Below, one piece after another: positions 10,843 through 53,056 of a stretch of DNA of 64,000 nt (position 1 is its first letter; each line of letters begins with the position of its first letter). This stretch comes from Anadara kagoshimensis (lineage: Eukaryota; Mollusca; Bivalvia; Arcoida; Arcidae): contig CM037864.1 of NCBI GenBank assembly GCA_021292105.1, forward strand, positions 44,809,109 to 44,873,108, in the 5' to 3' direction. Both the position numbers and the translations under genes were made by a program. The notes under the pieces were generated by a model. It was not told where the DNA came from and made no database searches. It saw only the letters and a list, made by a program, of their open reading frames with translations.

Positions 10843-12407
10843 TTGGAATATGTCGGAACCCCGGCGAAACGTAGGCGAACTCAATTCACCGTTGCAGAAA
10901 AGAAGGAAATAATTGTTATAAAAATGATCACCCAAAATCTTCTCAAGATGAAATTGCATCATTTTTTACATGTGAATGGGGTAAAACTGTTGGACGATCA
11001 ACTGTTGGAGATATATTGCAGGATAAATCAAAATACACGAACATTTCAACTGACAGTGATAAATCCATACGCAATCGAGGTGGAAAATTTGAGGAATTAG
11101 ACCGTGCATTATTTATGTGGTTTAGTGACGTTAGATCCCAACATGTGTGTGGGACCGATGAAATGTTGATTGAAAAGGCCAAAAAATTTGGAGGTGAATT
11201 GAATGTAGATAATGACTTTCAGTATTCTGTTGGATGGTTACAAGAATTCAAAAAGAGACATAAAATCGCGCATCACGTTACACATGGTGAAGCTGATAGT
11301 GCCGACCCGGAAGTAGTTAATCAAGGTTGATTACAATTACAACAGGATCTTGCGCAGTATGAGCCGAAGGACATTTACTATCTTGATGAAACCGGCTTAT
11401 TTTATCGTCTTAGTCCAAATTCAACACTAGCGACTGGACCCGTTCGCGGACAAAAGAGACAGAAAGATAGGATCACCGTCGCTTTATGTGCAAATGCCAC
11501 CGGGACTGATAAACTTACACCTTAAGTGATAGGTCGATGTGCATGCCCCAGGTGTTTTGGAAAGACAATTGATCCTAACGTGTATGTCACATATCGTTTT
11601 AACAAGAAAGCCTGGATGACCGGATGTGTATTTCAAGAGTGGTTGGTACAATTTAATAGAAAGATGAGATTACAAAATAGACACGTATTACTGTTAGTTG
11701 ACAATGCGACTAGTCATTCTAGTGATGGGATAACACTTTCACATGTGATACTGAAATTTTTACCACCTAACACAACGTCTCATATCCAACCGATGGATGC
11801 TGGAATCATACGCAACTTTAAGGGACATTATAAGACACTGTTAGTTAATCATTTTCTACGTTGTATTGAGGATAAGAAAGACCAGATTGTGACAATCAAA
11901 TTAGCCATTTCATTTGTGAAGGAATCCTGGCTATCGGTTAAGCCATCAACCATTGTGAACTGTTGGCGCCATACAAACATTTTGCCACCAGCTGTAATAG
12001 ACCATGATGAATGTAGTGATGAGGACGATATGCCCCTTGCGGAGCTTAGACTTTTGCTACAGAGAATGCCCAATGAAAACTTAATGAATGCGCAGGAGTT
12101 TGTAGACATTGACAATGCAGTGGAAACAGGTGAATCCTTGACGGATGAGGCTATAATGGAAATTGTGTCCGACTCTCGCGAATGTGACATTGAAAGTGAT
12201 GATGATGATGATGGTGTTGATGACAAGCCATTTTCTAAGGTCGACGCAAGACATGGATACGAAAATGCTATTTCTTTCTTTGAAAACAATCCAGAGATTG
12301 GAAAAGAACATTTGCCGTCACTGTGGCGCACCCTGCGCAGTATTGACTGTTTTACTAGTGCGACTACTATTAAGAGATCAATTATGGATTTTATAAGAAA
12401 GAAGTGA
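10843..12407 (+). pseudogene. Tigger/jerky-type transposase, decayed
   Basis: The N-terminus has a basic KRRRTQFT stretch and a psq/CENP-B-type helix-turn-helix (near 10,880-11,050), broken by a frameshift near 10,920. A CENP-B-type second HTH follows near 11,090-11,260 (AKKFGGELN, SVGWLQEFKKRH). The DDE_1 catalytic core shows LDETG near 11,382, LLVDNATSH near 11,695 and PMDAGII near 11,793 as the three acidic positions. In-frame stops lie at 11,328 (TGA) and 11,523 (TAA). The C-terminus is acidic and ends at 12,407. Known role: cut-and-paste at TA. Identity is sure; inactivity follows from the three lesions. Confidence 0.92.
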
Positions 12408-14371: not shown

Positions 14372-17300
14372 TTAATCCAACTCTAATCTGTTTGGAAAAA
14401 GACAAATGTGACCTGTTGCATCATTTTCATCAATATGAATAAACATACAACTGCATTTTATTTTGTTCACTGGTACAATGTCCAAATCTCTGGTTATTTG
14501 TACGGCTAAAATATTACTCTCAGTGTTATAATTAACACATTGTAGCAAACTGATTATTGCACAACAATCGGACTGAACATGCTCGTCCTCATTTAGAAAT
14601 AAAAATGAACTAACACAGCCATATTGTATTCCATCTCTTCCAGTGTAGCATATACATGAATTATCCCGTTTGAGCATTCTCTTGTAACAGTTTCCGTATA
14701 CCAACATATCTTTTATTTCTAATCGGTTGAAGGATGGAAATGTATCAGTTGTTGGGATTTCACCCAAAAAATCTATCAGTGTATGGAATTCCTGTTGGTT
14801 TAATTTCCTTTTCTTAATACCACCAAGAACAAACACTCCTTCTGCAATTTTGCGACCCCTTTTCAACAGATGCGGGCATTCTATCCCATTATATATTTTT
14901 TCTTCTTTTGAGCCTTTCACAATGCATTTTTGCTTTAGCTCAGGCAATTTCTGGACAAAGGCTATTCCAGTAGTAATCTGACTGTCAATACATTGTGTGC
15001 CTTTAATCATCTTCATAATGGCACCATTTTTGTCCTCAAAAGAAAAACAGCTGTGAGTATAGAGAGGTCCTAAATAGCGCACACTGTCTGCTAGGTGAAC
15101 CAACTGGTGTAAATTAAGTGTCATATAACATTTGTCATACAGTTTTGAAAAATGTTGACAGAAAGTTGTCAACATTTTCTCTGCTAAATCTACTTCAGCA
15201 TCAGTTGATCCACACTTCAGTAGTATATGCATAGCATTGACCAATAAAATAAAATGGGAAAATCTTTCATTATCTAAAATTCCAGGTAACACAGCAGCAC
15301 CATAGAAAAGTAAAAACGAGCGGTACTCTGAAGCTTTCCAATATTTTAAGTCATTTTGTATTGATTTAGGCAGTCTCGAAATATCTAATGTTGGTCGAAT
15401 TTGAGAAAGTCTGTTGTCAACTTTATTAACAGATTGATGAAAGCTAAAATGTTTTGTTGAAAACTCTTTGGCAAACCATAAACGTAAAAGTAATTTTTGG
15501 ACGCCAAGTAGGACTCCATGCATATAGTCAATTGCTATTCCATGGATGATGTGAAATTTTGGGATTAGCATCAGCCAAGATGGTCCCTTGATTCCATCAA
15601 TTGTGCTGTTTTTGTCTCCTGCCATTTTCCTTTGAACGCTTGTTTTTGCATCCTCAAGTGCAGATAGAAGAGTTCTTTCTGGTCCTTTGGGAGATTGCAG
15701 GTTGTATGGAAACACCATTGTATGTCCTTTTCCTACTTTTGCACTTTCACCCTTTTGTTTGCATTTCCAACAGCTGAATGCTCCATTGAACTGTACATTA
15801 TTACATAGAAGACACCTTGCTGGAAGATCTGCCGTTCCACATAGAAGATATCCTTTACAAGTAAATGTGTTTTTTTCGGGAGAGAAGCACTCAATACCTT
15901 CACTCATATCCATCATTGATGACAAAAATGGCTTCAGAAAAGTTCCCATTGAAGGTTTTTTGTTTCCAAACCAAAGAGCAGCCAAAATCATATTTTCTTT
16001 CTTCATTCGCAATTTGTATGGTAATTCATTAACAACTAAATAGATTGGCCATATCGAGACATTACTACTTTTGAAAACTGGTGCACCATCTGTATTAAAG
16101 GTAAATGATATGTTCTCTGAATTACTTAACACACCATTATTTTTGAAATATGATTTATACAATTGTCCATCGTAAATATCTTCATAAGTACCTTCAGGAA
16201 CGTTTCGAGTAAATCTGTGCTGGAGAGAAGTGAAGAATCCATCTTGTGCGATTAAATTTTTAATCTGATTTAGTACTGGTACTTCCAAAAAGTATGTTTT
16301 GTCTTTAACATGAAAGGGCTTTCCACAGTGTTGATATGGACAAAATGTCACTGTTTTGTCATCTATATATCCAAGACAATGTCTACAGTAATAATGATGA
16401 ACTAATGGATTCCTCAAATTTTTGAAAAACATCTTATAAGCATGGAGGCTTGTACAAAGTCTATGTCCTTGTGGAAGTACTAAAGCTATTATATTTAAAA
16501 GCTGTTGCACAGCCTCTCCAATCAAATTATGTTTGGTACAAAAAATTGCCAATAGTAACATAAACGCACCCAGTGTGACAGTACAGCCATCGTACAAGGG
16601 TTTTTTATCTTCATCTTTATCCTGTGTAACAGCATCTAAGATGTCATCAATGTAATCAAATTCATCATTCAAATCATAAGATATATCTACATCATCAACT
16701 GATTCAATTAAGGGGTCATTTACATCCTCTTCACTTGAATTGTCTAAAGCAGGATTTCTAGTTGTTTCAACAAGAAAATCAGTCAGTGTCTTGGCATCAT
16801 TTGAATCATCACCAATGTTCTAAAATAAATAAATGATGTATTTACAAAGAATTCTTATTATAAAAGTATACACTTAACAGACCATACATATTTACAAAAA
16901 ACATAATTGCTTTTTTTTTTTTTTATTTTAGAAAACATGCAAAGATTATTAAAGCATCTGCAGAGACTTATTGTAAAATGTATATCCACAAGCCACTGTT
17001 ATACCAGAATAATGTAAAACAAATCAAATTAAAACAAGAGTATCACTCAACTGGCAGTTTATAAATTTCATGAATGGAATCATGCATAATGGCTAAAATT
17101 AGCATTTCATTTGAAATCGTTAAAATGAGGTCAACAAAACATTTCTCAGAAAATCCAAGTTATATATGTGAAATAACCAATTCTCTTTTTTTTTTTTAAA
17201 TTAGAATAAAATCAGGCCAAGTATGTGTCCCAGTTAAGAATATTTCACTTATACATCAATAATTCACCAGTTAGAGGTGAAGGTACGAAAATGTTTACCT

Positions 17301-20078: not shown

Positions 20079-20357
20079 TTCAACAGCGACTGGAAACTGA
20101 GTAAAGGGTCCATTTCATTCAATGATATGTGCGCGAATGTGTAAGGTTATGTTAAGGATAATAGAAAATAAAGATAATAAAAAACTATTTCAGACCAATT
20201 TTATAACGAAAACAATTTATTCAATTGTATGTGTTTCTTTTAAAACTAAATCAAATTTTACATATATGCTGAGTGGACTTTTTTTCTTTTTTTAAATAAT
20301 TTAGTCTTTCAATTGAAATATTCCTACACAACCATCATGCAAATGAGGGTCAATATA

Positions 20358-21270
20358 TAGCCCAAGAGCTAGTGGGTTTGAAATATGTGTCAATGGCCAA
20401 AAGCTTTGAAGGTTGTTTCTGATAGAAAAATGTCTGTAGTTTTCGAATTTGGGCGTCTTGTGAATGAACTCGTTTCCGATTTTTTTTCAGACGCGAGTTT
20501 TTACACTAGAATCGCATTTTTCAGCCGGTTTTTCGGTAATTTGATAATTCTGCATTATGGACGCGATATGGCCTTAAAATGTCTTATTACTGATGCGGTT
20601 ATCAAGAATTATGATCATTGTTGACATTTAAGTTAAAAACTTCTTGATACATTTCAGATTTTTTTTTAAAATAACTATTTTAGGAAAAAAATAGACCAAA
20701 AATTTTGCGTTTTTAATATTTTGCCCTCTTTTATGTCTTATAAAAAAATAATAAAAGCATTTAAGTGAAATGTTTTACCATATTGTCACAGCCTAATGTG
20801 TTTTGCATTCAATAAAAGTAGCTGCATATCATTTGGTAGGAAATTGCGGCACCCACAGTGGAAAAACTTTCCCCTACCCCAAAAATTGCAAATTTCTCAA
20901 AAATCGATCTTTACTACAAATTTTGCTATTAGTTGCCATACTGATTGTTATACCGTGTAAGCTTTAATACTTGGGTGACAACATTGAAGACCTCTAACTA
21001 AAAACTTCTTGTTAAGCATTCAATCTCAATTTTGTGGCCAATTTTAAACAACCGAGTTTTGCGTTTTTACTTAATCTTTATTCGTTAAAGTCTTGTAGCG
21101 CATTCAAAAAAAGCCTGATTATCAATATACTATTTTATTTAGAATCCCTGATGTGTGTGCTTTATTGTGCAAGTATAATGTGTAACAAAATCGTCACATT
21201 AACCCATTACCCACGATTTATTCTTCCCCTACCCCAATATGCTAACGATATGCGAATTCACGGGATATAC
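20358..21270 (+). repeat. left terminal inverted repeat of the 7-kb element
   Basis: Near identical to the reverse complement of 26,490-27,406 for about 830 bases, then increasingly divergent over the last 80. It contains an ATTTATTC stretch near 21,217 that reads AATAAA on the minus strand, a plausible polyadenylation signal for the internal gene. Confidence 0.88.
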
Positions 21271-21331
21271 TGTGTTAGTGCTCTTAGACAGGCTGGTTCA
21301 AAATAACTCGTATTCATTCAGAATTATAATT

Positions 21332-24300
21332 TCATTCATCATCAGTGTCTTCACTATCACTACTGTCGGATTCACATACATCCTCATCTTCTCCCATGTC
21401 ATCCTCTGTAAAAGTTGTACTGTCCATCTTCAGTCTTATATCTTTCGGAATCTGTTCACCTTCAAACCAGTGAATCGCATACTTGTTATTTTCTTTTTTC
21501 CATCCATTTTCTTGTGGAGTATTTAATGTAGGACAACTGCAATTGGCATGTTTCCAAAAATATGCAACATATTCTGTTCGGAGGATTTTCTGAACAAGAA
21601 CACTTTTACAAGGAGGTAGTGAACTCGGATCGGCTCCTTTGAGCTTTTCTAATGGGTCAGTTTGATTTGTTGGAGCGTATTTCTCTCTGAAAATGGCAAA
21701 TCGTGCCTCATTTACTGTTTTAATGTTTTTTTTGCCATACATTTCACAGACAAAAGATTCCATTACCTTCATATCTCTTTCATTAACTCTTTGATTTGTT
21801 CCAATATTTGAGAAAACGCTTCTGAAAGTTGCACTTTTTTCAACGATATTATAAGGCCTAATTTTACCTTTTCTAAGAAATGCTGCAGTATAATCACATC
21901 CAGTGAAAGCATGGATAGCTGGAAGAACTTGGCACATTTCGATCCCAATTTCATTGGACAGTTTTGTTAGATCAATAAATCGCCTAGTATTGGTGCCGTC
22001 AGTGCCTGAATCCATCCATATGTTTGCATGTATTTGGTGACAATGATACAATAAAATAACCATTACATCCGTGTCATTTGCTCTAACCACTACGTTAGGA
22101 GAATCGGACCTTGAGGCAATGTATTGCACATGTAAGGTGATCCTGGTATCTGCCTCCTCGTGGGTACAGGCAAGATTGGACACTTCACTGCACACTACTG
22201 TTGCATCATTTTCGCAATAGAATTGATGGCAGTGGTCCTCTGTTGCATAATATAATGTATGGCCTGCAAGAATGTCAGCATAGTTATCATTCTTCCATTC
22301 TTGTAGCAAAAACGATAGTAATGACCTCTTGAAATTAGCAGATTTCAAAGCTGAACGGAAATCATGAGGTCGCTTTTGTTTTGGGCCCATTACTACAATA
22401 TCTGGTCCACTGCTCTCTCCTCGCATATCTCTTTCAATATCTTTGATGGATGGATGGACATATGTGTCACAAACAAAGTGTATTTCTTTGCCAGTTTACA
22501 TAATAGCTTGAGAATGGTTTTGGCTACACCTTCAAAAGTATCTGGTAGGTTTGACAGCAACTGTATAAGGAACATGGCATCAACGACATAAGCATCAATT
22601 TGATTTGCAGCTGGAGGATCAGAATGAGCCTTGCTCTCTAACATTTTCATAAGTATTGATTTGTCGGTTTTATTCATATTCCCGTCAATTTGTGCAAGAG
22701 CTGGCGGCACGGGAGTGAGAGGATATTCAAAAACTTTCTGCAAGTTTATATCTGTTGTCGTTGCCAAAAACAAAAGCCTACCAAATAGATCACGTGAACA
22801 CTGTAGCTGTATGATTTTCTTTGCTTTCACCTCAACCCGAACCTTAAGTGCCAAAGATGCAAAGTGCGCAATTTGTTTCTTGTAATAGGTTTTTCAAATC
22901 TAGAGGGATCTGCAAAACAGCCATTTCTAAAGTCGTGAAAAGATTGCTCGCCATATTTTACACAACTAAGTATCTCATTTTTCACATCATCTTTGACTCT
23001 GTTACCAGTTGATATGCACAGGAGATCCTCATTTCTTATCTCTGTATCAAACGGATTCTTAGTTGCTTTAATACAGTCGATCAAACTACTTACATCTTTA
23101 TTATCTCTCTGAATTCGCGACGGCTTGAGCTCTTGATTCACATCCCCCTTTTTCCGGATTCCAGTTTTTGAGAGAAGAGCACCAACGATAGCACTGCGGA
23201 CACTTCGTGTAATCATCCATCTTCGCCTGGCCGTATATGACTGGCTGAATGCAGAAATGCCAGTTAGACGAGATGCAGCATCAGCATTGATTGTCTGCTC
23301 AAGTGTCATGTCCACTGGAATTCTGGAAAATGATTTATTCGAGCGTCTTATAGACAAACCACCATTCTCAAGCATTGCTCTTGCTTGTGGATGACTTATA
23401 TCAATGTTAAGTAAATTTAAGTGATAGCGTGTCATCCATCTTGCATAGTTTGGTCTATTAGCTGCAAAAAATACTGGACACATTTTTCCTAAGCAGTAAG
23501 TAAATAAAGGTAGATCGTTAGTTCGACAAGATCTACTGAAAAGTAACAGAAGTTCAACTAATTCAATATACATAAACCAATACTGTGCTGTTGATCCATG
23601 GTTTCCAGTTCTTGTGTCATTGGAAAAGGCTTCATACATATCAAAAATAGATTTTAAATTTTCTTGCTCTAGAACGTTTTGCATTTCTTCTGAAGAAGTA
23701 TTTGTAATGAATTGTTCTAACTGCTCGTATAAAGATTCAGATATCTGACCATGCTCTTCCAGAAAAGACCGAAAATGGAGAATACGGAAAGAAAGAGATA
23801 ATATAGTATGCATTCTCTGACATCTGTTATAATGCTTCCCTTTTATGAACCCATTTAGAGACCCTTCTGCCAGAACTTTGGTCTCGGTTAGCACATATGG
23901 TCCGCCAGAGCCCTCAATTAAGTGACCAAGAGCGCCAAAATATGCCAACATTATATGGAAAGGACCAAAACATATGAAAATATTGTCGTACTTTGGTGAT
24001 TCTTCCGATTGTATCTGCATCGCTGGTTTAGCTATGGCAAGATCATAGTGGACAATTGCTGTGTTATCAGAACATTCCCGTGCCACAATCTGCGATCGAC
24101 GTAATGTTTCCGACACCACATCTAATCGGGTCGGTGGCAAACTTATATGTCCATATAGCCTATCACTTGCTCTGGTAGATGATCTACTGTGATTAGAGAA
24201 TTCCATCCTGACCACATGGGTATATTAGAAAATAAATGGTGACAAATCACCCATGTTAAATCCCTTTTTCTGGTCTCATTTAAATTAGAGGGGTCCGAAA

Positions 24301-25964
24301 TTGCTTTTACGGGATATTGAAATTTTGTTATTTTTGGACGCTTTCTGTAAGATTCTAAAATAGGGTCCTCAATATCTAAAGAGCGTTTACGTTTCAATGA
24401 CTTTGTTTGTGTAGTGGATACTTGTGGAATTCCTAGAGAGTCCCCCATTGAATGTTGTTCGTCGGGAGTGTTCTGGTAACATATTCCAACTGTGTCGTGC
24501 AAAGTTCCGCTTCCAGACAAAGTCTCGGTGTTTTCATCATAATTATCCCAAGCCGTTCCGGTTGACAAGTTTGGAATTTTCAGTAATCCATCAGGAGTTA
24601 GCTGATTCCTGTCTGATATTGTCATTGCAAGTTCAGTTTCAAGTGTCTCCGCAACATGGTAACTTATTGAGTGCCCTAAATGATTTAGTACTTCAATAAT
24701 TTTCCTACTACCAGTCATACTTTTAAAACCCAGTCCAAGACATAAATGTTTTGATGGCTTTATTTCGCCATTGGTTACAGCAAACAAAGCATCATCTGCT
24801 GCTGAACTGATGCATCTATTCATTCTTTCAGAAGGTTCTTTTGTTGAAGACCCTGTATATAGAGTTTTAAAAAACTGCATAAGTATGTCTGGGGGTTAGC
24901 TTGGCCTTTCTGTATTTCATTTACAGTCAATGGGTTCTGTAATTGGGGACATGTCTTTGACATTTCTAATATTGTATTTCGCAACTGGTATGCAGCTTCA
25001 GTGACTTTGGAATTTAATAAAAACGTATTATGGAAACCTATAATCTGATCTGTATCTAGAAAGCTTGGATATAATATTTTGCCTTGTCGTTTACCTATTT
25101 TACTCATGCAAATATCATCTTTGAAGTGATTTAGAAGTTTTACTTCTAAAGTCTGGATGGTATATGAGGAGCAATCAAGACCAATGTCCATCAGCATTGT
25201 AGTGTAATATTCATACAAGGAGGCAATTGTTACAGCTTGACCTTGTGCTATAACGTTTTTATTATGTATTCGGTCAACCATTTAAATGCTTTTTCGTGTC
25301 CTAGCCTAATGTTGCCATATTCTGTCTTAGCAGACCCGGGTATACACCTCTCAGAAAGATTTAAGTAATGTTTTCGGCAGCTATGGTGATATTTAACCTC
25401 TTTAGCAACAAAATCTATATCACAAACTCTGGCAATCATATCTGTATCACCCAGAACCATTGCAGCATTTTTTATTTTTTCTCCCGCTTCCAAACTTTCA
25501 CAATTGCCTAACTGTTCCCTTTTCTTACCCTTCGTCAGGAGGCCACAAAACAAACATACGGGAAGAAAAATACCGGAGGAGGAAGTTTCGTCCGATAAAT
25601 GTTCAGTGTGGGATCTTAAAGTGTAAGAAACTTCTTCTACTTCTACAGTGGAAAAAGACTCTAGTTCTTTTTTTGAGACAGCAGTGAAGTTCTTGTAACA
25701 CATTCTGTGATAACCATTGGTTTTAGGATCAAAGTTTTGAGGAAGATCTTGACAAATTTGTTTATATTTGTGGGATTTTGTTTTCGAAAGACGATATTCA
25801 GCAACTTTTGCCACTTTACTCCATGTTGTTTCATCAAAAGGTTTAATTTCTATATCTTGGAAACGTTTATCGACATGAAGGCAACAAACAAGATTTGTTT
25901 CATCTGTGCTATCGCCCTGTAATATCTGTTTCCCCTTAGATGTATCCAGCCGTGTGCTGGCCAT
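21332..25964 (-). pseudogene. ~1,540-aa transposon protein with zinc fingers and FEN1/XPG-like C-terminus
   Basis: Reading from ATG at 25,964, six open pieces overlap end to end and need five single-base shifts (near 25,260, 24,890, 24,150, 22,855 and 22,430), with no other stop. The N-terminus has Cys/His clusters (YHRMCYKNF, CLFCG, YHHSCRKHYL). The middle has GLGFKSMTG and ARWMTRYHLNLL-type segments shared with uncharacterised invertebrate repeat proteins. The C-terminal third shows spaced acids as in FEN1/XPG nucleases: VVDAMFLIQLL (22,581), THEEADTRI (22,156), ANDTDVMVI (22,070) and FTGCDYTAAF (21,895), then an acidic tail. Nuclease assignment is by motif only. The shifts lie in or near short homopolymers, so they may be decay or assembly error. 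Confidence 0.72.
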
Positions 25965-26489
25965 TTTGCAACACTTCTAATTGAAATGACAATGAGTTAT
26001 CACAAACAAATCGCAAAATATTATTTACAGTGATTTTAATTCAGTCACGGAATCAAATAGAATTAACAAACAGATTACTTATCTGCGTCAAAACTTCATT
26101 GATTCTATTGTGAACACGGATTCTTTTTAAAAACAAATATTAAATAAAATCAACTTGTTCACACGAAATATAAACGGTAACAAAACAATAGAAAAAAGGG
26201 GTGAATAGTTTTTTCTTACTTATCATAAACAACAACCATATGAAAGTATCTATAATTGCAACCACGTGTGATTTGCAATGACAGAAAACGTAACACAAAC
26301 GCTTTGCGCAGCGCCATCTGCCGAGTCATACAAAAGGGCGTGGCACTATCATTGCTTAATAATACAAAAAATCAAAGCATTGAATAAACAAGCTAACAGC
26401 GTAATTTACTATATGTTTCAAGTACAAATTTACGTTATAACACTCTACCGTGTTTAAAATCTCACTGCCTGAGAACGCACAAGTGTAAA

Positions 26490-27406
26490 ATCAATATCTC
26501 GCGAACTCGCTTATTTATTGCATATGGGGTAGGGGGAAGAATAAATTGTGGTGAAAGGGTTTGTGTGACGATTGTGTTATACATTATACTTGCACAATAA
26601 AGCACAAACATCAGGGATTCTAAATAAAATAGTATATTGATAATCAGGCTTTTTTTGAATGCGCTACAAGACTTTAACGAATAAAGATTAAGTAAAAACG
26701 CAAAACTCGGTTGTTTAAAATTGGCCACAAAATTGAGATTGAATGCTTAACAAGAAGTTTTTAGTTAGAGGTCTTCAATGTTGTCACCCAAGTATTAAAG
26801 CTTACACGGTATAACAATCAGTATGGCAACTAATAGCAAAATTTGTAGTAAAGATCGATTTTTTGAGAAATTTGCAATTTTTGGGGTAGGGGAAAGTTTT
26901 TCCACTGTGGGTGCCGCAATTTCCTACCAAATGATATGCAGCTACTTTTATTGAATGCAAAACACATTAGGCTGTGACAATATGGTAAAACATTTCACTT
27001 AAATGCTTTTATTATTTTTTTATAAGACATAAAAGAGGGCAAAATATTAAAAACGCAAAATTTTTGGTCTATTTTTTTCCTAAAATAGTTATTTTAAAAA
27101 AAAATCTGAAATGTATCAAGAAGTTTTTAACTTAAATGTCAACAATGATCATAATTCTTGATAACCGCATCAGTAATAAGACATTTTAAGGCCATATCGC
27201 GTCCATAATGCAGAATTATCAAATTACCGAAAAACCGGCTGAAAAATGCGATTCTAGTGTAAAAACTCGCGTCTGAAAAAAAATCGGAAACGAGTTCATT
27301 CACAAGACGCCCAAATTCGAAAACTACAGACATTTTTCTATCAGAAACAACCTTCAAAGCTTTTGGCCATTGACACATATTTCAAACCCCACTAGCTCTT
27401 GGGCTA
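26490..27406 (-). repeat. right terminal inverted repeat of the 7-kb element
   Basis: Inverse copy of 20,358-21,270. The gene start at 25,964 lies about 525 bases inside its inner end, so the promoter is probably between 25,965 and 26,490. Confidence 0.88.
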
Positions 27407-27693
27407 ATAGGGTAGACACAATGAAATTTGGTATGAAAAATACCGTTCTCGTAAAATGAGACATAAAAATAACAGTAGTTGACATCATTTACATTTAAAA
27501 AGAAAAAGTTGAGTCAGAGAAAAATAATAATACGTTCAAATCATTCAGATAGCATGGAACTGACCCTTGGCCTTCCCCTCCTGCTTTGAAAGCGAGGCTG
27601 CACACGCTGTAGCTAGTTTGAATCATCCAGAGCGCCATTGTGTACAGATTCAGTTCAGTTTGAAAATTGTTTTAACAAGTAAAAAAAAATATC

Positions 27694-39056: not shown

Positions 39057-41861
39057 CTATATTTGCAAATAAGTTTTGGATGTAGTGTTTGAATGAACAA
39101 TAAAATGCTGAATTTGACCAAAGTTTACAAATTTTCCTGACGTCACTTTGGTAGATTGTGGTCCTTTTGGTAATTCATATGACACATAAGATGACACTGA
39201 CTTATCTGAAACCTTTTGATTTTGAGAACACCCATAATTCACAACACGTTTGGTAACTTGGTGAATTTCTTGATGATAAAAGTACTTTTCTGTAACACAG
39301 TTTTGACATAAATCAACACAACAATGCTTATGAATACTGGCAACAGCTTTAGATCTTAAAGTAACAGGATAGGAATTACCAACAGGCTGACTTAACAGCA
39401 CTGGGGCACCTATTTCCATGTCATCCTCTATGAATGCTTGAGTTCCACTTGAAGGGATTAAATGTTGGTGTGGCATAAGTTTGCCCGACATTAACATGAA
39501 GTTACACCAGTCATATATGAGATACGTTTCTACAGCAGTCGATTCTGGATAACGCATGTTGAGTGAACGTTTGCAAAGCCAAGAATTAAACCTTTCAAAT
39601 ACAAACATCCAGGTACCATATACTGGGCCAAATCGCTTGATGCCATCAATTACATGATGCAAAATATGTGTTGTGATGTTCTGAATAGATAGAGGAAAGT
39701 CCCGTTCCAGGAGTGCTAAAGCATGGTCAAGTTTCTCTTCTAGTTTTTCCAGCTCATCTAAATTTTGATTTTCAGCACATAACAGCTCAAAGCAATCCAA
39801 CAAATTAAATAATGTTTTTCTTTGTTCCTGCCCAAGTGTTCCCCTTAAACAAAATTTTAAAATCCCCTGTGAAGCTAACTGCTTCCAATCATGTGATTTT
39901 AATGATCCTGTTTTACTAATAAATCTTGATGACTTCAAACCAAATCCGGCAGGTACTTTAATAAGCTCAGCTCTATCATCTGCTGTTTTAATTTCATCTT
40001 TTGACAGAAGAAATGGAGGTGTAGCCTCATAAATTTTACTTGTGTTTTCATTGTTTCTTTTCTTCGAACTTGTTTTTCGTTTCCTGTTTGTTTTTCAATA
40101 CCAACAGATGGAAAATCAGTCACGTCATATAACAACCTACCAAATGCTCTTTCAGCTGACACAATTTTGTTAACATCAATGTTTTTTGCAGTTATTAAAT
40201 GAATGATATTCTGCACAACATCTTTGAATGTATGACAAGCATCAGGTTGAGACTGGTCTAACCTATTATGTTCAGGTAAATGAAGGAGAGCATAACTTCC
40301 CTTACAACCAGTCGCAGTGGCTATGGTGGCAGCCTGGGTTTTGTTCTTTGCGCTCTGGAAAGCTTCACGATATTTTACCTCTGATGCTTTAGACCGCAAC
40401 TGAGGTCTTTTACCCGTTTCTTCCCATTTATGAATAAAGTTGGTTGTATCTTTCCGCAAGAGGTCATCAGATTTCAGATATGTGCGATTTGATAGATAAA
40501 TTACTTTGTCCAAATGTTTACAGTGTATCCCACGGATGTGACACCAATGACAACCTGCTAATGCACCACTCCCAAGCTGTCGGAATATTTTTGATAAAGC
40601 AGGATAATCTAAAACATACAACAAAAGCTTAATTTTGACCAGTACAGGTGCTTTTTCATATTCTCTGTAAGAAGTACATCCTGTCAGAAAAATTAATTCA
40701 TCCACCAGGATTTCAATATAAGGGTCAAGATTAGAAGCTTCAGATTGTTTACTTCCAGGAATAATTCCAACCAACATTATATTTCCAAATGCATTCCGAA
40801 CATGCCTTGGGAAATTGAGCAAAGTTAGCATAATTGGGGTCATTGAATACATAACACCTATATTATGGAATGGATTAACACCATCAAGTTCTAATGCAAA
40901 TGATAATCCCATTTTGTCACCTTGAAAATGACCTTCGTTTGAGTAAAGTTCTCTCCATGAAGGTGAGTCATGTATATCCCACATATCCATTCCTTTTTCA
41001 AGTATTTGACATTCAGAACCAGGATGAGACTGCACAATCTTTGCCAAATTTGTCTCACCAAAAATGCGAGCCAATCTGGGTCCAAGTGGTATGTATGAAA
41101 ATTTTTTTTTAGAAACGGGCCTTTTTGCATTGTTGTTGTAATATCTTTCTTCCTGACAGACTGGACATTTTGAAAGATCGTTGTAAGTATTGACTGAAGT
41201 ATTACGATATATTACACAATCATTTATACAAGCATCAAAAACAACCTTTTTAATTAAATATGGATTGATCATTTTCCTGGCTTCCTTATAATCAGAAGGG
41301 AGCAAGTCTCTATGATTATGCTGCAAAACCTTTTGCATTTTTAAATTTGCACTAAAGGCTGTCTTACTGGTTCCTGGATGACATGTAAATTGAAAGAAGT
41401 TCAGTGCCAACCACTGCAGAATGGTCATGTCTTGATCGGATCCACTTAATACATGAGTTGCTATTCCCGATGAGTATAACTTTTTGTCATAACTGAAACT
41501 CCAGAACTGACTGCTTTCTTCATCACCTGAATCACTGAGTGACTCTTCTTCATTATCATTTATATCCTCATCACATAAAAATGCTTCATCCTCACTTTCA
41601 CGTGCACTCCTACAAAAAATAACAATAATATAATTGTACTACTAGTAGGTGGCAAATGGCAATGTTGTTTTATGTTCACACTGTTGTGTCAACATTTAAA
41701 AAAAAAACTGTAGAATCATGTCTCGTCTGGTAAATTTTAACCCATATGCAACAATAAATATTCTATGGAAGTAAAAAAATTCAAGAAATCTTCATATGTA
41801 TCAATTCTTTTTAAAAAAGCAAAAAACCTTTTTTGTTGAGTGATCCTTAAAATTAAATAAA

Positions 41862-50700: not shown

Positions 50701-53056
50701 TTAAAATTATCATACAAAAGTGAAGAATTAAAATATATATCCAGCAAAAACAATTACGGACTAATACGCGCATGAATACATTTCAGATCGGCACATGTGT
50801 ACATGATGAAAACATTGCTTTCGTAATTTTCCGGGAGACCCAATCACTCAGATTAGAGTTTATACATACCTGGGATACCGTATATGGAAATTCCCGTAAT
50901 TTCAGTCGAAACGAAGGATTTGATTGGCTGTCAAGGTGAAATGAGAGCGGCGCTAAATACGAAAAAATCCAACGATCGCTATAACGCATTCAGCATGGCT
51001 GATGCTTTAAAAAAACCTTTTCCTGCTGTGTGAAATATTGCAGATATTAAAGCATGGCCAAACTCTTCCAAACTTCTAACTTCAAGGTACGTAGCCAGAG
51101 TTGAAATACCCATATCATATGTTTGACCGGGTTGGCCGCTGTTTTTAATCCCCTGCCGGTGAAACCGAAGGGGACTATAGTGTTTAGTTGTCTGTCTGTC
51201 TGTCGAACTTGTTGTATTGGGCAACTACTAAAATTCTGACTTGAAACAAATAGGACAGGGAAACCACCACATTTTTATTCCTACATGTATTAATTGCTAA
51301 ATATTGATACTGACGATATTGTATTGATGCATGTATCGAAATTTAGAAAATGGGAATTCATTGATATAACAATGAATTCCAACCCCTCATTAATATATAT
51401 ATATATAAACATTTATATATATTCATTGATAACCAGATCTAAATTTGTTATATTTATTTTTCAGAAAATGGAATAACATTGGAAATGTTGCAAGTTTTTA
51501 GTGAAAATGACATTACAGACATTTTTGAAAAATTCAAAGACAGATTTATAGCACGACAGATTTGCCAATGCTTCTCTAATACCAAAGTGAATGTTGAGTC
51601 TGAGAACAAAAATGCTGAAGTTGATATTAGCCTTATCTCATCTGACTTAAAATTTGGAATACAAAAAAACTGTAAGGTCACCGATTCTGATACAGGTAAC
51701 TCTACATCCAAAGGTGAAAAGTATACCATTGAGGAGCTATTAAAAAAAAAACCTAAGAGAGGGAAACCTACTCCAGCACAGGCATACTTTTCCAATGTCA
51801 TGAAAGATGCTGCAACGGCAGCACATATTTGGAAAAAATGTCCAAAATTGTGCGAAATTTCTGAACAAAAACGTGAAGCATTTTTCCGCAGTGTTAGCTC
51901 TGTATTACCAGATTTGGTAGTAAATAAAAAGGAGGAGTTGTGGAAACGTCTTGGGGAGAATTTGCAAAATCGTCGGAAATACTTGATGGACAAAATAACT
52001 GGGAAAAGGAGTCCAAAATCAAAAGGTGGTCACAAAAAACTGCCTCAGCCTTCCAGTACTGTGTCCCAAACAACTGAGAGAGGATTAGTAAAGGCATCAT
52101 CAGGCACATACACTGCTAAAAATAAAAACTTGAATTCAGTTGTTTCAACTACCAGTAGTTCAATTTCATCTAGTTCAGTTTCAACTTCAGTAACCAATAT
52201 CAAACTTCTAACACCAGGGGCCACAGTAGACATCTTTAACAGAAGAGAAGAGTTTTTGGGAGTCGGATTATATCTGAGAGAGAAAGATGAATTATATGTA
52301 GAACTGGCATTACACAGCATGTCAAAAAACATCACAGATGAACCTTATAATGAGCTTCCTATGGAAACTGAGGGTGTAACAAACTTTAAAGACTTAAATG
52401 TTAAATCAGTATTTCTATGGAAAAAAGAACTGGTTCAATTGAAACAGTCTGCAAAATCTACTGGTGAAAAGAGAAGAACATCAAGTAACAGTTCAGAGTG
52501 TATTTTAAAAAAGCCCAAGACAACAGCAATCAAACCAGTAACAGGAAAAAATCTGGAAACACAGTCAGAAATAAAAAAGTCTTCAAAAACTTCTTGTGAG
52601 AAGAGAAAATCATTAAATAGCAATTTGCCGCGTCCAGAGTGTACTTCAAAGAAGTCAAAGACAACAACAATAAAACCAGTATCGACAACAAAATCTGAAA
52701 TTGTTGTTATTGAATGGAGTGCAGGGGAACTTTATCTTGGTGTTCTTAAAACTTCGAATGCAGGAGTTTTTGTTCATAACTGTTCGCAACCTTTGGGTAG
52801 AATAATACCTGTGGATGGCACATGTACAGATGGCAAGAGATCAGACTTTTATGTTTTGGAACATGTCAAGGATAACATGTTAAAAATAAATAACAAGGAC
52901 ATTCAAAAGGAACCAGATATGGATTTTCTGGTTTGGAAAATTTGTGAAGCAAATAATCACTTGGCAAGATTTGATGAAAGCAAGAAAAAAATATTCTTGC
53001 CAGATGAAAATTTATTTTTGTCATCATTACGAACTCAGTTGGACAATTACCTGTAA
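44295..53056 (+). CDS. accessory protein of element 2, 2 exons, 552 aa
   Basis: Exon 1 is 44,295-44,361 (ATG), exon 2 is 51,465-53,056 (TAA); borders AATG|GTATAC and TTTTTCAG|AA agree in phase. Residues about 10-75 (ISREGLDALNENGITLEML, then FSENDITDIF) look like a SAM-type helical domain. Residues about 110-200 are a helical basic block with WKKCPKLCEI and LQNRRKYLMDK. A Ser/Thr run at about 243-262 and Lys/Ser-rich nuclear-localisation-like repeats (KKPKTT, KKSKTT) follow; the C-terminal 150 residues form a mixed strand region (VIEWSAGELYLGV). The frame is fully open. By position it parallels the BEN-like gene of element 1 and may bind the element ends; no enzyme motif seen. Confidence 0.75.
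44700..44726. repeat. poly-C tract (27)
   Basis: A pure run of 27 C in the intron of the accessory gene. Confidence 0.9.
44900..45170 (-). pseudogene. PHD-like zinc finger fragment
   Basis: Minus-strand pieces give an acidic Ser/Asp run (DSDSSSSNEDDTDESEK), then CCVC and, after a frameshift, MCFTCVFKMAQCDICKYWVHLIYC. The spacing of Cys pairs and Trp-x-His resembles the PHD finger often found at the C-terminus of invertebrate DDE transposases. Too short and broken to assign. Confidence 0.4.
46660..47062 (+). mobile_element. tRNA-derived SINE
   Basis: Near 46,666 an A-box-like ACTACAGTCAGGAGAGC is followed 35 bases later by the B box GGTTCAATTCCCG, the internal RNA polymerase III promoter of a tRNA-type SINE. 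The body runs through a 25-G tract (46,831-46,855) to a tail with GATGCGACATTAAACAGC. The A/B spacing is tRNA-like, but the 3' end does not close an acceptor stem, so this is not a tRNA gene. Confidence 0.7.
46831..46855. repeat. poly-G tract (25)
   Basis: A pure run of 25 G within the SINE body. Confidence 0.9.
47655..48575. repeat. compound CAT/ATC microsatellite, about 0.9 kb
   Basis: Runs of CAT are broken at intervals by CAGCAGCAGAACTGAATGT, GTCACATCAT and TCTCCTCATGTCACATC spacers that themselves recur, so it is a higher-order minisatellite grown from a CAT core. Long His/Ser-only open frames across it are a by-product of the triplet. It lies in the accessory gene intron. Confidence 0.9.
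48995..49530. repeat. ~167-bp tandem repeat, about 3.2 units
   Basis: TGTAAGAGGAGTTGAGTTCAC recurs near 49,006, 49,170, 49,337 and 49,516, with shared body text (AAAGTGACTAAGTTT, TTGAAATATTTCCATAAAGTCAGG) between. Units are about 85-95% alike by eye, with small indels. Confidence 0.85.

Follow-up and report, generated by a model that had tools for sequence, protein, structure and literature searches.

Academ elements and the locus in Anadara kagoshimensis

The Academ superfamily and its AcademX lineage were reportedly described by Kapitonov and Jurka in 2010 and by Kojima in 2020. In the parts of the literature available, Academ counts as one of the DDD/E transposase superfamilies (PMC9587614, PMC10294476) and, among the molluscs studied, is almost limited to bivalves and abundant there; curated bivalve members average 5565 bp, and the domains follow Yuan and Wessler 2011 (PMC10294476). 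The accessible text of another paper gives target duplications of 3 or 4 bp for AcademX and of 9 or 10 bp for AcademH, placed in the same superfamily, a difference apparently tied to the nuclease and the helicase encoded (PMC10045372). The subject here is a complete element at positions 20358-27406 of a 64,000-nucleotide stretch, the window, of contig CM037864.1 of the bivalve Anadara kagoshimensis (assembly GCA_021292105.1, positions 44,809,109 to 44,873,108), and in all likelihood it is a very young autonomous-type DNA transposon of the AcademX lineage of Academ with a predicted C-terminal nuclease as accessory enzyme. The type of element is already known; what stands out is its extreme youth.

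An earlier note, made from the letters of the window, could match the element to no named superfamily, whereas Academ, lineage AcademX, fits in having a 3-bp duplication and a nuclease in place of a helicase. The 3-bp target site duplication (TSD), found in 24 of 24 insertions, lies within the range given for AcademX in the available text of PMC10045372, terminal inverted repeats are present, and the long protein would combine a transposase part with a C-terminal nuclease replacing the helicase. It is unlike AcademH, for which that text gives a helicase and TSDs of 9-10 bp, both in TSD length and in that no helicase is among the Pfam matches of two copies, L104 and L017, that together cover the 1545-residue protein. 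It departs from curated bivalve Academ elements in its length (7.05 kb against the mean of 5565 bp in the part of PMC10294476 available) and its great youth. KolobokE, KolobokD and KolobokP are also DDD/E transposons with accessory nucleases (PMC9587614, as far as its available text goes), but their transposase superfamily and nuclease folds differ.

Ends, target duplication and empty sites

The unit of 7.05 kb is delimited by the following features.

20355-20357, no strand: left copy of the target duplication, ATA, 3 bp, from flank comparison
20358-21268, plus strand: left terminal inverted repeat, on the 3' side of the gene, first bases TAGCCCAAGAG, from repeat alignment
26494-27406, minus strand: right terminal inverted repeat, on the 5' side of the gene, from repeat alignment
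27407-27409, no strand: right copy of the target duplication, ATA, 3 bp, from flank comparison

The nearly identical inverted repeats of about 0.9 kb seen by the earlier note are there, with 97.7% identity over 914 alignment columns (about 0.91 kb) and 530 bp complementary without a mismatch, and so are its TAGCCC ends, the element running from TAGCCC to GGGCTA with ATA on either side. Between the two duplications that the note had offered, TA or ATA, the choice falls on ATA since a 3-bp duplication is present in 24 of 24 distinct insertions in the host genome, that in the window included, and a 4-bp one in none of the 24; as background, 80 of 600 pairings of left and right flanks from different insertions share a 3-mer. 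The duplicated sequences are mostly rich in T and A (TAA, TAT, ATA, TTA). One insertion sits in a repeat, and its joined flanks with a single TSD copy match 40 scored places (83 candidates), 28 of which cover all 190 bases. These are paralogous empty sites, and the boundaries of the element are thereby fixed. The search for full-length copies and empty sites that the note had proposed thus found both when run in the host genome, with 40 empty places for one filled site.

Copy number and recent spread

The host genome searched comprises 1,115,223,567 bases in 36 contigs. It holds about 200 nearly identical and mostly full-length copies: the exact 35-base terminus has 205 matches on each strand, the 19-base terminus 207 and 208 by strand, and a 31-base terminus, at no more than 3 mismatches, again 205 + 205. 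Termini with 1-3 substitutions were accordingly absent genome-wide in this 31-base search, which overlooks termini with a length change, such as the left end in the window, and which was not directed at more diverged relics. Among 100 termini listed, 96 form 48 pairs, 47 of them spanning 7025-7071 bp. The remaining pair, the sole short one among the 48, belongs to a copy of 5379 bp (L074/L075; host contig C1, 2637961-2643339) whose termini are intact and which may have arisen by deletion. With the C-terminal protein as query, the 112 scored matches of 928 candidates all have 99-100% identity, and diverged copies may exist among the unscored candidates.

Divergence between copies is correspondingly slight. 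Fifteen ends on the C side (1.5 kb each) have a mean of 1.8e-4 substitutions per base, with none in 77 of the 105 pairs, and differ by indels about ten times as often (mean 2.9 per pair). The mean on the N side, 0.022 per base, is inflated by L074 and L094, two odd ends; each of the remaining 13 has 0-3 substitutions relative to the window. Seven copies, including that in the window, have 0-2 substitutions relative to L017 over 3.57 kb. At animal rates of 1e-9 to 1e-8 substitutions per site per year, the spread would date to some 9,000 to 90,000 years ago or less. That one-base length changes are in such excess points to errors in the consensus. The family has very recently spread, the genome being caught during or just after a burst of the element, and the youth that the earlier note had ascribed to it holds good.

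The gene and its reading frames

The gene of the window copy, about 4.6 kb on the minus strand, is divided as follows.

21332-25964, minus strand: transposase gene; six overlapping frames in the window copy, one frame of 1545 amino acids in another copy
25251-25964, minus strand: frame 1, 238 amino acids; N-terminal Cys/His clusters CCLH, YHRMC, CLFC and YHHSC
24823-25281, minus strand: frame 2, 153 amino acids; weak Pfam matches alone (E 0.07, 0.11)
24146-24880, minus strand: frame 3, 245 amino acids; WDNYD...TLH at 24497-24550, with a candidate first catalytic acid
22830-24215, minus strand: frame 4, 462 amino acids; candidate second acid HYD in 24036-24056, D...E in 23286-23315; DUF6589-like
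22396-22881, minus strand: frame 5, 162 amino acids; VVDAMFLIQ at 22561-22587, first acid of the FEN/XPG-like region
21335-22495, minus strand: frame 6, 387 amino acids; IHFVCDTY at 22460-22483, HEEADTR at 22142-22162, ANDTDVMVI at 22055-22081 and FTGCDYTAAFLRKGK at 21863-21907; remainder of the FEN/XPG-like nuclease

The single gene of about 1,540 codons that the earlier note had seen is thus not continuous in the window copy, where the frame changes five times, each time in the same direction; a continuous protein of 1545 amino acids is encoded by another copy (L104+L017), with Cys/His pairs starting at residues 27, 85, 137 and 192, WDNYD at 473, IVHYD at 638 and LEQTIN at 889. Introns were considered and rejected because neighbouring frames overlap and the other copy is open throughout. 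The N-terminal Cys/His clusters, rightly picked out by the note, probably constitute a zinc-binding and DNA-binding region, and by eye similar CxxC and HxxxC pairs are present in L105, L106 and L110.

The breaks in the frames of the window copy are probably errors of the assembly consensus and need not be biological, because what separates the compared copies is for the most part a length change of a single base. A truly dead copy, with its gene broken by mutation and not by assembly error, would equally present five frame changes, and 77 of the 112 scored copies in the assembly lack the full-length frame, the open frame being at least 1549 amino acids in the other 35. However, the near absence of substitutions in the seven copies compared over 3.57 kb, that in the window among them, and the greater frequency of one-base length differences make a dead copy unlikely.

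Candidate transposase core

Between about residues 470 and 960 of the 1545 lies a region common to other families, in which DNxD, a later D and a D...E pair are kept. In an alignment with three other families of the host genome, one row being partial and one assembled from pieces, DNxD, D and D...E recur, and all four rows share D426 and E430, as numbered in the aligned piece; by eye the same three places are present as FDNID, LDEAIY and DMAIEQ in the protein of L005, a relative from a contig binned as prokaryotic and dealt with below. The Pfam family DUF6589 matches frame 4 of the window with E 3.1e-5 and 23.3 bits, under its curated cut-off of 27, and, likewise below cut-off, L017 (E 0.009), L036 (0.039), L106 (0.042) and L005 (0.003). 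The middle region may accordingly be a DDE/D core of RNase H-like type. The view of the earlier note that no DDE/D motif is evident finds no support because the region keeps candidates for D, D and E together with weak similarity to DUF6589. No paper naming Academ together with DUF6589 was found in the literature searched, which was without Kojima 2020 and Yuan and Wessler 2011.

C-terminal nuclease-like region

The motifs VVDAMFLIQ, HEEADTR, ANDTDVMVI and FTGCDYTAAF (from 21907 downward) are all present on the minus strand, in the order of the FEN1/XPG acids as the earlier note had said, and a further acid that it overlooked, in IHFVCDTY at 22460-22483, lies ahead of the ATG of the last piece, in its frame. 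By its order this acid presumably takes the position of FEN1 D86, and the series D (VVD), D (VCD), EAD, DTD and GCD is taken here to correspond to FEN1 D34, D86, E158/E160, D179/D181 and D233. As a degenerate DNA pattern HEEADTRI has one match in the window and none in 100 shuffles, while patterns with other codons for HEEADTR gave 43 + 3 further places in the host genome. HEEADTR is invariant in seven aligned sequences, the element and six from pattern loci, three of the latter being fragments, and the other motifs recur in this alignment as well; one fragment, L029, has KDTN in place of NDTD. The likeness to FEN1, XPG and bacterial 5'-nucleases of the PIN superfamily extends from the order of the acids to a GCD followed by a GxGKK motif, L047 having GIGKKTAW where Taq has GIGEKTAR. 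The domain is unlike FEN1 and XPG in being fused to a transposase and in having no Pfam or PDB sequence match.

Profile comparison with hhalign is also pertinent. Seven rows scored 27.7 against FEN1 (best of 200 column shuffles, 21.9), and nine rows scored 37.8 against FEN1 plus Taq (best of 150 shuffles, 25.1), where the element's own middle region gave 14.8. With ten rows, L108, L109 and L005 having been added later, the local score against FEN1 plus Taq was 48.3 (probability 81%, E 1.3e-5; best of 99 column shuffles, 24.2) and the global one 37.7 (probability 87%, E 4.7e-7; best of 100 shuffles, 11.4). No shuffle reached the true score (0/200; 0/150 and 0/99 for each of three targets; 0/100 global). 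Most of what the local alignments span is the GCD part; in the global alignment VVD, EAD and GCD fall opposite D27, E152/E154 and D236 of 1b43.

A number of points weigh against the combined reading as an AcademX element with a DDE/D core and a FEN/XPG-like nuclease. For the C-terminal region, no Pfam XPG model matched up to E 10, and a seven-row profile run with hmmsearch against PDB found no nuclease. Two single-sequence AlphaFold models (p3, p1x) had mean confidence scores (pLDDT) of 38.5 and 32.8 and were unusable, the value for the PIN/FEN fold being 32.8. Against FEN1 alone or Taq alone hhalign was weak (local probability 3-11%, global E 0.17-0.93). In the global alignment three acids, that of VCD and the two of NDTD, miss their FEN counterparts by some nine columns: by eye all seven acidic ligands of FEN/XPG can be placed in order, of which this alignment pairs four. 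For the middle region, a profile search of PDB with its alignment gave no match, and the core is proposed from conservation. The nuclease of Academ is of XPG type as a matter of general background, and no paper naming both Academ and XPG was found in the literature searched, which was without Kojima 2020. The assignment to AcademX is by architecture, TSD length and literature because no Academ reference sequence or profile was to hand for comparison. The comparison with FEN1/XPG that the earlier note had proposed is accordingly favourable for hhalign with FEN1 plus Taq, at 81-87%, and gives no support by Pfam, PDB or AlphaFold, the region being a putative FEN/XPG-like nuclease.

The note had supposed a transposon mobilised by, or carrying, a flap-nuclease-like enzyme. 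That the element carries the putative nuclease is supported, its C-terminus being FEN/XPG-like; mobilisation by it is not. Were the FEN/XPG-like domain itself the transposase, with no DDE/D core, a flap-type nuclease would cut both ends and target, and the retention of the nuclease motifs across families would be in keeping with this, as would the lack of any RNase H family matched above its curated cut-off. To our knowledge, however, FEN nucleases do not join strands. With the middle region conserved between families in its spaced D, D and E, with the DUF6589-like matches, albeit below cut-off, in L017, L036, L106 and L005, and with Academ listed beside DDD/E superfamilies in the available parts of PMC9587614 and PMC10294476, a transposase of that kind is very improbable. 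That the C-terminal region is instead some other PIN-like or unrelated fold, perhaps inactive, would accord with the missing Pfam XPG and PDB sequence matches, the weak hhalign results with FEN1 or Taq singly, the three acids out of register and the KDTN of L029, but is equally improbable when the order of the acids is kept, GCD is followed in L047 by a sequence so like that of Taq, and the hhalign scores exceed those of every shuffle.

Relatives and neighbouring genes

Outside the host genome, a pattern scan of prokaryote contigs gave 12 places, ten of them chance and two, L005 and L008, relatives. L005 (contig JAJRVU010000273.1) has a frame of 1466 amino acids and is a full-length relative, with 27% identity over 1455 columns (E 5.8e-148); it is binned as a metagenome-assembled genome of Planctomycetota from the deep sea, has no inverted repeat longer than 16 bp, and the frame continues past the contig edge. 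L008 (contig NZ_CAHJWD020000426.1) is a fragment (E 2e-17). Both are probably misbinned animal DNA, and for L008 a mussel source is likely since its assembly is of a Bathymodiolus gill symbiont. A protein scan of prokaryote contigs yielded no relative, and no true relative was found in IMG/VR, where L001 was a chance match of 15 residues in a phage gene and L002 and L003 were chance occurrences of the pattern inside other genes.

The related families L036, L040, L047, L108 and L005 have a Cys-rich C-terminal tail similar to the CXC domain of lin-54 (PDB 5fd3, E 0.029, the one notable PDB match; for the tail of L005, Pfam TCR at E 1.1), unlike the family in the window, which is without it.

Elsewhere in the window, an open reading frame (ORF) of 293 amino acids at 11526-12407 (plus strand) has a DDE_1 domain (Pfam 9.9e-34) and is presumably a pogo/Tigger-like remnant. 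Two tnp2-type transposon genes (Transposase_21, 1.8e-14 and 4.6e-26) lie on the minus strand at 14372-16672 and 39057-41428, the second split in two ORFs, one with DUF4218. An ORF of 525 amino acids at 51479-53056 (plus strand) has no Pfam match at E 0.01.

Proposed mechanism and significance

What is observed is precise insertion with a 3-bp duplication and recent spread. The N-terminal, probably zinc-binding Cys/His clusters may bind or hold the element ends, and the candidate DDE/D core of the middle region would excise the element and join it, with a 3-base stagger, to the two strands of an AT-rich target. The C-terminal FEN/XPG-like nuclease would act as an accessory strand cutter, trimming, at the ends of donor or target, either 5' flaps or the strand that is not transferred.

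It is possible, though offered tentatively, that this AcademX family has only lately entered the genome, horizontal transfer being one conceivable route, and is at present transposing, with the FEN-like nuclease performing part of the strand cutting. If that is so, a family with many intact genes could reveal what the nuclease does. An accessory nuclease or helicase is fused to a DDE transposase in several transposon lineages, with the role of these enzymes open, and for Academ the accessory enzyme is tied to the length of the target duplication by one paper, in the text of it available (PMC10045372). Some 200 nearly identical and mostly full-length copies with many open genes are a natural setting in which to test that link, and the youth of the family makes it a good prospect for a live copy to study.

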